From Planctomycetia bacterium (GTDB lineage Bacteria; Planctomycetota; UBA1135; GCA-002686595): a stretch of DNA of 32,252 nucleotides. Within the stretch, counting starts at the first letter, position 1, and each line of letters starts with the position of its first letter. Made by a program: the position numbers and the translations under genes. The stretch lies in contig SXXH01000143.1 of NCBI GenBank assembly GCA_005789645.1, forward strand, positions 1 through 32,252, written 5' to 3'. A model generated the notes under the pieces. It had not been told where the DNA came from. It made no database searches and worked only from the letters and a program-made list of their open reading frames with translations. Below are positions 2,790 through 15,507 of the stretch, in pieces.

Positions 2790-3641
2790 TCAGCGCCGAC
2801 GCTCGCCGCGCAAGCCCTCGAGGATCCAGCCAAGCCGGTGCAGCCACCACGAGCGACGCGAACGCGAGCGCACGAGGTGCAGCATGCGTCGACGCTCGCC
2901 GAGCCGCGGTTCGTAGCCGCGGAGCACCCTCAACCAATCCGAGCGTGACAACGAGATCCCGTCGCGCGCCTCGCGACGAGCGACGAAGCGCGCCAGGCGG
3001 GCTAGATTCCTCGCGCGCAAGCCCTCCTCCATCGACTCGTGGAAGCGCGATCCGTCGAGGTCGAGCACGAAAAGGCTCGCGCGCTCGGGCGCGCCCTGCA
3101 CCAACAAGTTGTTCGGCTGGAGGTCCGCGTGCTCGAAGCCGAGATCGTGCAGGCGCCGCACCAAGGCTCCCGTGGCGCGCAGCAGCACGGGCGGCAAGCG
3201 CCGGCGCGTCGCGCGCGCCGACTCCATGATGCTCCCGAGGTCCCGCGCGTCTGCGATGCGGCGCACGACGAGTTCCAGGCGCCAACCGCATGGGTCGAGC
3301 CGCTGCGCGCGCGCCGCGACCACGGGGGCCGTCGGCACGCCGGCGTGGGCAAGGCGCTCGGCCAACGCGGCCTCGACGAATGGGCGCGACGGGTCGAGGT
3401 AGCGCTCCCCCGTGGCGAAGCGCAGCAGACCTCCATGGCTCGAGCGTCGCACCAGCAGGCTCGATCCAAGTTCCAAGAGCGGTGCGCGACCGGCGAGGGC
3501 GCTGCGCGGCAGCTTGGGCCGCGAAGCCGGCGTCCAGCCCAGTCCCGCCAAGGTGTCCCTGTCCTGCGGCCTGCAAGCCAGGACATCGCGACCTTCACGC
3601 ACGAGCTCCCAACCGGCGGGCAAGTCCGGCAAGCGCGTCAC
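2790..3641 (-). CDS. LPS core / Kdo kinase-like protein (WaaP/KdkA family)
   Basis: A 283-residue protein with the small-kinase fold used to phosphorylate lipopolysaccharide sugars. The catalytic loop HADLQPNN is at 171-178 (Asp173, Asn178) and the metal-binding DLDGSRF at 194-200 replaces DFG, as in the Kdo kinase/WaaP/RIO-like group. KdkA-type enzymes phosphorylate Kdo on lipid A at the inner membrane face with ATP. The substrate here is inferred from family only. The basic C-terminus (RSRSRRSWW, LRGERRR) could bind membrane. I chose GTG at 3641 because a GGGAG sits 8 nt upstream; TTG at 3647 is too close to it. It stands alone, convergent with the ATPase gene and downstream of kptA on the same strand. 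A different sugar or a protein substrate is possible. Confidence 0.75.
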   Translation of the reverse strand: MTRLPDLPAGWELVREGRDVLACRPQDRDTLAGLGWTPASRPKLPRSALAGRAPLLELGSSLLVRRSSHGGLLRFATGERYLDPSRPFVEAALAERLAHAGVPTAPVVAARAQRLDPCGWRLELVVRRIADARDLGSIMESARATRRRLPPVLLRATGALVRRLHDLGFEHADLQPNNLLVQGAPERASLFVLDLDGSRFHESMEEGLRARNLARLARFVARREARDGISLSRSDWLRVLRGYEPRLGERRRMLHLVRSRSRRSWWLHRLGWILEGLRGERRR

Positions 3642-3690
3642 GACCAACGCTCCCGATCGAGTACGCCCCCCACGACGGAGCCGGTGCGTT

Positions 3691-3784: not shown

Positions 3785-5623
3785 TCAGTCGATGCCCAGG
3801 CCGAAGTCTTCGTTCGACTCAACGGGCTTTGGTGCCGGCTTGGAGGTCGGCTTGGGAGACAGCGGCGGCACTGAAGCGGCGGGACGACGCGCCGGGCGCT
3901 CGTCGTCGTCGAGTCCGCGGCCGAATCCACCTTCATCGCGAGCAGGACGATCATCGCGAGCAGGACGATCATCGCGGGCAGGGCGATCATCGCGGGCAGG
4001 GCGTTCATCGCGACGCGCGGGACGATCACGCCAACCAGCCTCGTCGCGCCGGACCGGACGCTCGTCGTCCCTGCGCACGGGGCGCGGTTCATCGCGGCGC
4101 GAACGATCGTCACGCGGGCGATCGTCACGCGGGCGATCGTCGCGCGGGCGGTAGTCGTCGCGCGGGCGGTAGTCGTCGCGCGGACGATCATCGCGCGCAC
4201 GGTACTCGTCACGCGGACGATCATCGCGGGACCGGAAATCATCGCGCGGGCGATCGTCACGCGGGCGATCGTCATAGCGACGGGGCTCGTCGTCGCGGTG
4301 CCGGGCGGACTCGCGCTCGTCAGGACGACGATAGTCGTCGCGAGCACGGTCATCGCCAGCGCGGTAGTCGTCGCGCGGGCGATCGTCATAGCGACGGGGC
4401 TCGTCGTCGCGGTGGCGGACGGACTCGCGCACGTCAGGACGACGATAGTCGTCGCGAGCGCGGTCATCCCGACCGCGGTATTCGTCACGCGGGCGGTCGT
4501 CGCGCTCGCTACGAGCGGGCTCCTCGCGGCGCTGCTGACCTTCGTCGCGGGCACGATCGAAGCGCGGCCTGTCGTCGCGGCCACGGCCGTCGTCGCGAGC
4601 TCGGCGCGGTTCGTCACGGCGCGGTTCGTCACGGCGCGGTTCGTCACGGCGCGGTTCGTCACGGCGCGGTTCGTCACGGCGCGGCGCATCACGGCGAGCA
4701 GCCGGACGCTGGTCGGCGTGTTCGCGTTCGCGCGGCGCCTCGCGCACATCATCGCCGGCTTCGGACCAACGCGCTTGCGTGTTCGCTTCGGCTCCGCCTT
4801 GCGAGGCTTCGGCTGCCTCGCGACGACGGCGACCGCCACGACGGCCGCGGCGACGGCGACGTGCGCCGGCATCATCGCGCTCGTCCGGTGCACCCACTCC
4901 GTCGCGAGCTTCGTCGCCGGACGCGGAGTCTTCGGAGTCTTCGCCCGCAGCGTGCACGGCGGCCGGCGCATGACCGCGTTGATCGTCGCGGTGTTCATTG
5001 CGACGCTCGTCGCGGCGCGCCGGGCGACGGTCTTCACGACCAGCTGGACGGCGTTCGACGTCGATCCCGTCTGCATGGATCTCACCCACCGACAAGTAGT
5101 CGGTAGGAATCGGATCCGACAGCCACAACGAGTAACGATCCCAGAAGTGGATGCCACCCTCGTGCGCCTCGCGCGCGTTGACCGTCACGACCGCGTACTC
5201 GCGTCCGAGGCGCTTGCCCATGTCGATGGCATCCTCGATGGTCGTGGCGAGGTGCAAGAAGCGACGGCGACCGCTGCGCAGGCCGTGGCGCGCGGCGCGA
5301 TCGGCGTCCATGCGCGAAACGCCGACATAGACATGCTCGGGCGGTTCGCTGGGCTCGCCCGGTTCGATCTCGATCGAGTGCCCATAGAGCGCGCGCACGC
5401 GGTCGCCCTGGATTTCGTAGCGCTTGCGATCGCCCGAGTCGACGGCGGCGTGCACATCCGCCTCCTCTACATCCTCGCCCAGCTTCTCGTTCAGCGCGTG
5501 GACCACGTCGGACAGCGCGGCCCAGCCTTGCTTGTCGACCTCGAGGCCGAACTCCTCGGGCTGGTGCCGCAGCATGTAGGCGAGGGAGCGGGTGATGCGT
5601 TCGATCAGATCAGGGGATGTCAT
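3785..5623 (-). CDS. kptA: RNA 2'-phosphotransferase KptA/Tpt1 with giant Arg/Asp-rich tail
   Basis: A 612-residue protein; ordinary KptA is about 180-220. Residues 1-185 are the KptA/Tpt1 domain, which moves a 2'-phosphate from RNA to NAD+: winged-helix part with LRH (Arg19, His20), the RVRALYGHS motif (75-83, Arg77), and the ADP-ribosyltransferase half with RRRFLHL (119-125) and the final WLSDPIPTDYLSV (167-179). The usual YHGT motif reads YVGV (99-102), so the NAD-contacting His is replaced by Val. Residues 186-612 are low-complexity Arg, Asp, Glu and Pro, first basic (RRRRRGRRGGRRRR) then repeats such as RDDRPRDDYR. They end in SNEDFGLGID. The tail resembles the disordered RNA-binding arms of RNase E-type proteins. 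ATG at 5623 starts the conserved domain; a longer in-frame start at 5737 adds only unconserved residues. Domain call firm, activity uncertain. Confidence 0.88.
   Translation of the reverse strand: MTSPDLIERITRSLAYMLRHQPEEFGLEVDKQGWAALSDVVHALNEKLGEDVEEADVHAAVDSGDRKRYEIQGDRVRALYGHSIEIEPGEPSEPPEHVYVGVSRMDADRAARHGLRSGRRRFLHLATTIEDAIDMGKRLGREYAVVTVNAREAHEGGIHFWDRYSLWLSDPIPTDYLSVGEIHADGIDVERRPAGREDRRPARRDERRNEHRDDQRGHAPAAVHAAGEDSEDSASGDEARDGVGAPDERDDAGARRRRRGRRGGRRRREAAEASQGGAEANTQARWSEAGDDVREAPREREHADQRPAARRDAPRRDEPRRDEPRRDEPRRDEPRRDEPRRARDDGRGRDDRPRFDRARDEGQQRREEPARSERDDRPRDEYRGRDDRARDDYRRPDVRESVRHRDDEPRRYDDRPRDDYRAGDDRARDDYRRPDERESARHRDDEPRRYDDRPRDDRPRDDFRSRDDRPRDEYRARDDRPRDDYRPRDDYRPRDDRPRDDRPRDDRSRRDEPRPVRRDDERPVRRDEAGWRDRPARRDERPARDDRPARDDRPARDDRPARDEGGFGRGLDDDERPARRPAASVPPLSPKPTSKPAPKPVESNEDFGLGID
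3940..4015. repeat. 15-bp tandem repeats in the kptA tail (distal)
   Basis: About five imperfect copies of a 15-bp unit (gcgagcaggacgatcat type, drifting to gcgggcagggcgatcat) encode RPARDD repeats near the end of the KptA tail on the minus strand. Confidence 0.7.
4267..4494. repeat. 114-bp direct tandem duplication in the kptA tail
   Basis: 4267-4380 and 4381-4494 match along their full length with scattered differences. The unit is 38 codons, keeps the frame, and encodes two copies of a block containing ESARHRDDEPRRYDDRPRDD. This points to recent growth of the tail by in-frame duplication. Confidence 0.85.
4606..4680. repeat. Five perfect 15-bp tandem copies in the kptA tail
   Basis: The unit gcggttcgtcacggc occurs five times without a mismatch, followed by a degenerate sixth copy (gcggcgcatcacggc, 4681-4695). 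On the minus strand it encodes DEPRR repeats. A multiple of three, so copy-number change would keep the frame. Confidence 0.93.
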
Positions 5624-14272: not shown

Positions 14273-15340
14273 TCACAAGCCTGCGCCGAAGGCCTCCTCG
14301 CGCGGCCCCGCCAGCGTGGAGGGCGCGTCGAAGTCGAGGATCTCGAGCACATCGAGTTCCGCGCAGCGACAGGGCACGCCGAGCAGCTCCGCCAAGGAGG
14401 GCCGAGTAGCGCCACCCTCGCCGTTGACCGCCTCCTTCACGTACGTGCCGTGCTCGGTGCGCATGACGACGTGCAGGACGAGATCGGCGCGCCGCTCGAC
14501 GGACGTGATCTCGATCCAGCGCTCGCGCGCCTTGTCGGCGCGGCGGTGCGCGACGCGCGCGGGCGTCTGCTGCACGATCGTGCGGCGCGGCCCGACCAGC
14601 GCGGCGAGACGCTCGTCGTCGACGGGTTGCTCGAGCTCCACGAGCACGCCGTACTCCTTCTTGTGCGGAGTCTCCTTGAGGAAGCGCACGCGCGACTTGT
14701 CGGCGTGGTGCAGTCCACGCACCTCGAGGCGTCCCGCGTTGCGGCGGTTGATCTCCGCCTCCACCTCGGCGAGATCCACGTCCAGCACCTTGGGATTGAC
14801 GAGCTCGAGCACGAAGGGCCGGCCCTCGCCCAACATGCGCACATCGACATCCTCGCGTCCCGCGCCGTGGAACTTCTGCTTGCGCGTCTTGTAGAACCCG
14901 CCCGCGACCCAGGCCACGAGCTCCTGCACCGAATCGCGCGTCAACTTGCCGAATCCCTCGCAACGCTCGCACTTCCTGCGACGACGCGGGTGGCCCTTGC
15001 ACTCGGGACAGAAGAACACCGTCTGCGGCAGATCACGCACGAGCTTGCGGTAGCGGCCCTCGAGGTACAGCTTGACCTGTGGGCGCATCGGCTCCTCGCC
15101 ACCGCGCGGGACTCGACGACGCACGGCGCCGCGTGAATCGTCGCCGTCGGCGACGACTCGGCCCTCGAGTTCGTCCACCTGCGGGGCGTCGGACTCCTTG
15201 CCGCCCGACTCCTCGTCGTCCGGTCCTCCGGTCTCCTCGGGGCCAACCACGTCGGGTCCAACCACCTCGTCGCCCGCGTCCTCCGCGCCGATCCCGGTCG
15301 CCTCGAAGGGGTCGTCTAGTCCTCGCGAGTCTGCGTGCAT
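14273..15340 (-). CDS. pus10: Pus10-type tRNA pseudouridine synthase (54/55)
   Basis: 355 residues. LEGRYRKLVRDLPQT (93-107) is followed by two CxxC pairs (Cys111/114, Cys124/127). The catalytic block HGAGREDVDVRMLGEGRPF (158-176) carries the Asp nucleophile (Asp164 or Asp166). RRTIVQQTPARVAHRRADK (252-270) and HGTYVKE with RPSLAELLG and LDVLEI close the domain. This order is that of archaeal and eukaryotic Pus10, which makes pseudouridine 54/55 in the tRNA T-loop. The N-terminal THUMP region of archaeal Pus10 is missing; instead residues 1-85 are acidic and probably disordered. The protein ends in AFGAGL. ATG 15340 has ggaagga upstream. An internal ATG at 15088 with gaggag before it would give just the catalytic part. 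The substrate uridine here is not established, since most bacteria use TruB for position 55. Confidence 0.9.
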   Translation of the reverse strand: MHADSRGLDDPFEATGIGAEDAGDEVVGPDVVGPEETGGPDDEESGGKESDAPQVDELEGRVVADGDDSRGAVRRRVPRGGEEPMRPQVKLYLEGRYRKLVRDLPQTVFFCPECKGHPRRRRKCERCEGFGKLTRDSVQELVAWVAGGFYKTRKQKFHGAGREDVDVRMLGEGRPFVLELVNPKVLDVDLAEVEAEINRRNAGRLEVRGLHHADKSRVRFLKETPHKKEYGVLVELEQPVDDERLAALVGPRRTIVQQTPARVAHRRADKARERWIEITSVERRADLVLHVVMRTEHGTYVKEAVNGEGGATRPSLAELLGVPCRCAELDVLEILDFDAPSTLAGPREEAFGAGL

Positions 15341-15451
15341 GGCGTTCCTTCCGCGCCGCCAGCGGAGGCCGCGCCCAACGACTCGAACGTTGCGTCCCTC
15401 CACGCTGGACGGGACGGCGCCGGCGCGGCCCTGGCCGCGTGCGGGGCGCAG

Positions 15452-15457
15452 AGGATA
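15452..15457 (-). promoter_or_regulatory. TATCCT -10-like element upstream of pus10
   Basis: The minus strand reads ccgctatcctctgcg, about 110 nt before the pus10 ATG. The core gctatcctct is identical to that at 17448-17457 before the FAD enzyme gene. Confidence 0.35.
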
Positions 15458-15507
15458 GCGGCCGACGACGCCGCGCGCACGCGCGAGCTTCACAGCCCTC
15501 GGCTGGC

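Follow-up and report, generated by a model that had tools for sequence, protein, structure and literature searches.

A planctomycete family of KptA-like proteins with an altered NAD site and a C-terminal motif shared with DEAD-box helicases and Pus10

What KptA does in bacteria is an old question, and it was raised again by a Planctomycetia contig (SXXH01000143.1; the window, meaning the whole stretch of 32,252 nucleotides that was analysed), in which a KptA-fold domain is followed by a long disordered tail (Table 1). We think it probable that this protein belongs to a KptA-derived subfamily that has been recruited as a docked part of an assembly that processes RNA. The open reading frame, the PF01885 match and the homologues all agreed with the initial annotation that a KptA-fold domain carries a long translated RD/RE tail, which is unusual for KptA, and the tail, given there as about 430 residues, measured 427 (residues 186-612). 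What that annotation overlooked were two FGxG(L/I) motifs in the tail (567-571 and 607-611) and the loss of the NAD-binding HGT from the domain.

Table 1 Features of the window discussed in the text
Feature	Position	Strand	Basis or remark
CDS, KptA-like protein with disordered tail, 612 aa, stop included	3785..5623	-	ATG at 5623, stop 3785-3787
KptA/Tpt1-fold domain, residues 1-185	5069..5623	-	PF01885, AlphaFold2, Foldseek
Arg19-His20 of Arg-His-Arg-Arg tetrad (CthTpt1 R18, H19)	5564..5569	-	invariant 40/40
Arg68 of tetrad	5420..5422	-	invariant 40/40
Val100-Gly101-Val102 replacing NAD-binding HGT (CthTpt1 101-103)	5318..5326	-	His 0/40, Thr 0/40
Arg120 of tetrad (CthTpt1 R121)	5264..5266	-	invariant 40/40
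Predicted disordered polyampholyte RD/RE tail, residues 186-612	3788..5068	-	composition, tandem repeats, present in all complete family members
Internal docking-type motif FGRGL, residues 567-571	3911..3925	-	pair seen in 44/52 complete homologues
C-terminal motif FGLGI-D, residues 607-612	3788..3805	-	C-terminal FGxG in 50/52 complete homologues
WaaP/KdkA-like kinase gene, directly downstream of kptA, operon-like	2790..3647	-	PF06293 E 1.5e-23
Pus10-type tRNA pseudouridine synthase ending EEAFGAGL-stop	14273..15493	-	PF21238 E 7e-60; TIGR01213
C-terminal FGAGL and stop codon of Pus10	14273..14290	-	whole-genome pattern search

The PF01885 profile covered residues 9-162 of the window protein (E 2e-24), the AlphaFold2 model of residues 1-190 had a mean pLDDT of 95.5, and the best PDB matches found by Foldseek were the Clostridium thermocellum Tpt1 structures 6ede/6e3a (E 6e-18, TM 0.86-0.87); by these three analyses both the winged-helix RNA lobe and the ART-type NAD lobe are present. 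The domain thus shares fold and phosphate-binding Arg-His-Arg-Arg tetrad with the Tpt1/KptA enzymes (CthTpt1 6E3A/6EDE, TkoKptA, RslTpt1), and the tetrad is invariant in all 40 family members that were compared. But the window protein has no HGT, and neither its His nor its Thr occurs in any of the 40, while most outgroup planctomycete KptA proteins retain it. In CthTpt1 (PMC6333775), the adenosine site is lined by Phe107, Ser110 and Ile111, the 2'-OH of the NAD adenosine is held by His101 and Thr103 of the HGT, and the phosphates lie in a cage of Arg121, Arg139 and Arg140. At these positions the family has V/I/L/A for His101, V/L/I/M for Thr103, D/E for Phe107 (39/40), R for Ser110 (36/40) and A for Ile111 (35/40); Gly120 has become R in 40/40, Arg140 is lost, and an arginine matching R139 is present in 39/40. 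The adenosine pocket of the window protein would accordingly be made of the conserved Asp/Glu106, Arg109, Ala110 and Arg119. Because the new residues at the NAD site are themselves conserved, the alignment indicates that this site was replaced by another conserved residue set with the fold retained, and that it did not simply decay.

One alternative is that the domain is still a normal RNA 2'-phosphotransferase, NAD-dependent and able to do without the HGT, to which a docking tail has been added. The invariant tetrad and the R139 equivalent would suit such an enzyme, CthTpt1 in its closed product complex gives the best structural match, and His and Thr are just two of many NAD contacts (PMC6333775). 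Loss of the HGT might also weaken the use of NAD without ending it. We nevertheless regard this as unlikely, since both residues are missing throughout the family and the conserved changes at Phe107, Ser110 and Ile111 stand in the pocket instead, and since the H99A-T101A form of Runella RslTpt1 made only 4% product and was lethal in yeast tpt1-null cells (PMC6333775). For the same two reasons, the family-wide absence of the HGT and the 4% product of RslTpt1 H99A-T101A, the name RNA 2'-phosphotransferase given in the initial annotation holds for the fold and is doubtful as a label of activity. The sequence FYDR (160-163) was also considered as a family-specific signature, and it was weakened by its occurrence in an archaeal canonical KptA.

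The PF01885 profile was searched in 61 relatives: nearly every genome of the GTDB family to which the window belongs had a match, compared with 1 of 24 genomes from the order's other families. When named GTDB species were scanned, 70 planctomycete loci of this type were obtained, among them those of the cultured strains Poly30 (CP036434), Pla163 (CP036290) and Pla86 (CP036296), of which we take Pla163 to be Rohdeia mirabilis and Poly30 to be Saltatorellus ferox (both taxa were confirmed to exist). With the start site in relatives placed at the Met nearest to the domain, the complete relatives are 288-588 aa long, compared with 612 aa for the window protein and about 180-200 aa for canonical KptA. 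In all 52 complete family proteins the tail is 103 residues or longer (median 195), and whole-tail length varies fourfold, from about 100 to 430 residues. None of the 52 ends near residue 185, whereas planctomycete KptA outside the family does: in a phylum-wide sample of 294 genomes, the canonical proteins of other planctomycetes stop 1-6 residues past the domain and mostly keep the HGT. The homologue search for C-terminal extensions that had been proposed with the initial annotation therefore found tails family-wide and compact KptA elsewhere in planctomycetes, and the accompanying statement that known KptA proteins are compact holds for the latter and not for the window's family. Within Planctomycetota as sampled, the tailed subfamily appears to be restricted to one GTDB family.

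In a FastTree phylogeny the family was monophyletic (support 0.82), its sister group was formed by Gemmatimonadota/Latescibacterota proteins that also lack the His (support 0.999), and the next branch out consisted of planctomycete KptA-Nudix fusions (support 0.88). The three KptA loci without the NAD-binding His that were inspected in Gemmatimonadota and Latescibacterota each have a short basic C-terminal extension with (S/T)(F/Y)GRKxR. In nine loci of other planctomycete families, a Nudix-like region, its Nudix box recognised by eye, stands C-terminal to the KptA domain. Like the window protein, these fusions and that of Bodo saltans mimivirus (PMC9503650) are KptA relatives with a C-terminal addition, and the planctomycete ones, which branch near the window clade, have also lost the HGT in the alignment; the fusions differ in that the addition is Nudix-like and, in the planctomycete ones, the fourth tetrad Arg is missing.

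The long tail with two FGxG motifs is the other difference from canonical KptA. Termination in FGx(G/A)-hydrophobic was seen in 50 of the 52 complete proteins; of the other two, one is read across masked bases and one breaks off within the RD repeats. Two FGxG(L/I/V)-type motifs, with the second at the C-terminus, were present in 44/52, and in those 44 the spacing of the pair was mostly 40-54 residues whatever the tail length. In many members a few residues follow the motif (FGLGID, FGAGVDR, FGAGVDSRRDES). Across these proteins the C-terminal two-motif cassette is conserved while the RD/RE region before it varies.

The same tip was then found on other RNA enzymes. A search of the window's own draft genome for F-G-x-G-hydrophobic-stop returned one real open reading frame, the window Pus10, which passes the curated equivalog TIGR01213 (266.3 bits, cut-off 200). 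When nine genomes including the window's were searched for readable ORFs of at least 300 aa ending exactly in FGxG(L/I/V/M/F), all 19 that were obtained were KptA (7), Pus10 (6) or DEAD-box helicase (6), and the chance rate of the terminal motif calculated from Pla163 composition is 6.8e-5 per protein. Across the family, counting ORFs from contigs that may carry frameshifts, 21 of 30 Pus10 proteins have the strict motif and 29 of 30 a relaxed one (FGSNL, FGAFL and FGEDI are the relaxed versions, on about a third), and 16 of 22 DeaD-like helicases end in the motif, with 6 of 22 lacking it. RhlE-type helicases carry the terminal motif in four genomes, including some whose DeaD-like helicase lacks it. 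Eight DEAD-box helicases have the double motif at a spacing of 42-64, the first copy being sometimes relaxed, and when the Pla163 KptA tail was used as a query, the best matches outside KptA were DEAD-box helicase ORFs in three genomes. Thus, as far as the sequences tell, the C-terminal motif of the KptA proteins also occurs on DEAD-box helicases of the same genomes, in several of them as the same spaced pair, and singly on Pus10. The tail is therefore less of a KptA peculiarity than had been supposed, its C-terminal cassette being common to helicases and its motif also on Pus10; the RNA-enzyme context that had been proposed for it is borne out.

According to the literature, Pus10 does not occur in Bacteria (PMC5682645); homologues were found in 60 of the 61 relatives and are nearly universal in this planctomycete order. 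Among 20 Pus10 proteins from the order's other families the motif was seen once, in a genome of the sister family (G037), where Pus10 ends EFGAGLPSA. The KptA of this genome, which is canonical, bears the HGT and has no tail, ends PMFGLGAAE, which means that the motif is also on a second, phylogenetically distinct KptA. The idea that FGxG tips are widespread was rejected, as pattern counts were no higher than in a reversed-pattern control and the real long-ORF matches were the three RNA-enzyme groups only, and a partial survey of the Pla163 proteome (800 kb) gave no clear motif excess outside KptA. At about 2.93 Mb in Pla163 there is a DNA polymerase III alpha-like ORF with an RD-type repeat insertion resembling the KptA tail, and like the other tail-like matches it does not have the terminal FGxG tip. 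In the RNase E proteins of 11 family genomes, the N-terminal part is a very long, charged and disordered extension, and about 6 of the 11 have an FG-like motif close to the N-terminus, which we treat as a lead only. PADLOC returned nothing for KptA or Pus10.

A short hydrophobic sequence at the extreme C-terminus, where most members have it, might act as a C-terminal degron or protease tag and not as a docking motif. This is improbable in view of the internal copy that the 44 KptA proteins and several helicases have at a constrained distance from the terminal one, the further residues that stand beyond the motif in many members, and the restriction of the motif to RNA enzymes. It is very unlikely that the motif sends its carriers to a compartment, be it the membrane, a shell or the nucleoid edge, and not to a hub of RNA enzymes: C-terminal peptides can serve as cargo signals and several unrelated enzymes share this one, but in the nine genomes no non-RNA enzyme of at least 300 aa with the exact tip was found.

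Composition analysis of the 427-residue window tail gave 124 R, 87 D, 39 E, 45 P and no Cys, with a fraction of charged residues (FCR) of 0.59 and a net charge of about 0. The initial annotation described its beginning as polybasic; one short R cluster (ARRRRRGRRGGRRRRE, about residues 271-290) does exist and is the only one, but the absolute NCPR is no higher than 0.07 in every 61-residue block. The DNA under the tail is made of tandem repeats of 15, 18, 33 and 114 bp, so the exact repeat copy number could be sensitive to assembly. These repeats, with the fourfold length range among relatives, would also fit a generic low-complexity RNA-binding arm that grows by repeat slippage and in which the FG motifs are incidental. 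Such an origin has little left in its favour and is largely refuted, as the pair keeps a constrained spacing in different genera and on unrelated proteins while its codons vary synonymously. The same variation at the motif positions, together with a frame that is open and ends in the same motif in 50/52 complete homologues, indicates that the tail is translated coding sequence, and the antisense open frames over it are high-GC shadows. A sequencing or assembly artefact, or an untranslated tail, is practically out of the question even though the DNA is repetitive, the draft of the window genome has 330 contigs at 72% completeness and the contigs of several relatives stop within the RD repeats, because the finished genomes CP036290, CP036296 and CP036434 and nearly all complete homologues share the architecture, which leaves at most the exact repeat count open to error.

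Short linear motifs that end disordered tails commonly dock enzymes to a hub, and SSB-Ct is the textbook case. E. coli SSB likewise has a flexible tail with a conserved docking element in its last residues, but there the tip of one protein serves many partners, whereas here many proteins have one tip, which means that the hub would be the receptor. A second likeness is with the C-terminal scaffold of RNase E (the REER repeats and AEPV-rich region of P. aeruginosa; the BR-bodies of Caulobacter), which has in common with the window tail the Arg/acidic repeats followed by an Ala/Pro/Glu-rich stretch, the short conserved motifs and the company of DEAD-box helicases. The window tail has the mixed-charge disordered segment with short linear motifs that marks degradosome and BR-body proteins, and the comparison with degradosome-type RD/RE tails made in the initial annotation was apt, because a KptA tail, searched in three genomes, had a DEAD-box helicase tail among its best non-self matches. 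The RNase E scaffold gathers many different motifs on one protein; here the tails are on KptA and helicases and share one end motif, which is also on Pus10.

From these likenesses we infer a partner for the motif, condensation by the tail and an activity of the domain as follows. The FGxG-hydrophobic tip would be a short linear motif that binds one common putative hub. The RD/RE segment would be a flexible, RNA-touching and possibly condensate-forming spacer, comparable to the REER repeats of Pseudomonas RNase E, which, like further Arg-rich motifs there, bind RNA and are required for the formation of foci in P. aeruginosa (PMC11964227). The KptA domain may read 2'-phosphorylated (or otherwise phosphorylated) RNA ends or junctions, or alternatively may act on such RNA with a cosubstrate other than NAD, and the helicase would remodel and Pus10 modify the same RNAs. 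In this way the putative hub would gather the KptA-like reader (or altered enzyme), the helicases and Pus10 in a degradosome-like assembly. Counting against it are the 6 of 22 DeaD-like helicases that do not end in the motif and the relaxed tips of about a third of the Pus10 proteins, and RNase E, the usual scaffold, has its FG-like motif in only about 6 of 11 genomes. The wider proposal is that the family builds an RNA-processing body by a single C-terminal docking code, in which KptA-derived 2'-phosphate readers, DEAD-box helicases and Pus10 would plug into one putative hub by their FGxG-hydrophobic tips, which in many cases form a bivalent cassette behind a mixed-charge spacer; in this form we find the arguments for and against it about evenly balanced.

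A five-residue motif now ties KptA to helicases and a pseudouridine synthase, and a KptA branch with a rebuilt NAD site is defined. The pattern suggests an organisation like that of the degradosome, with the shared motif on the clients and not on one scaffold. Since the motif was found in culturable strains (Rohdeia mirabilis Pla163 and Saltatorellus ferox Poly30), peptide pull-downs could expose the KptA pathway.

The gene neighbourhood was analysed in the same loci. ArkI and KptA together make the 2'-phosphate at tRNA U47 reversible (PMC9095486), and the substrate of the window protein might by analogy be a tRNA 2'-phosphate, with a kinase as the partner of KptA. However, no ArkI was found adjoining kptA, and a pairing of KptA with an ArkI-like RNA kinase was dropped because both profile and fold place the neighbouring kinase with RfaP/WaaP (best match WaaP/RfaP, 6DFL). 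This WaaP/KdkA-like gene, which probably encodes a lipopolysaccharide-directed kinase, gives no support to an RNA operon. In 30/30 of the family's long loci it follows kptA on the same strand; the gap is usually no more than about 160 bp, and in Pla163 the two genes overlap by 4 nt. The Pus10 gene lies about 9-25 kb from kptA in many genomes.
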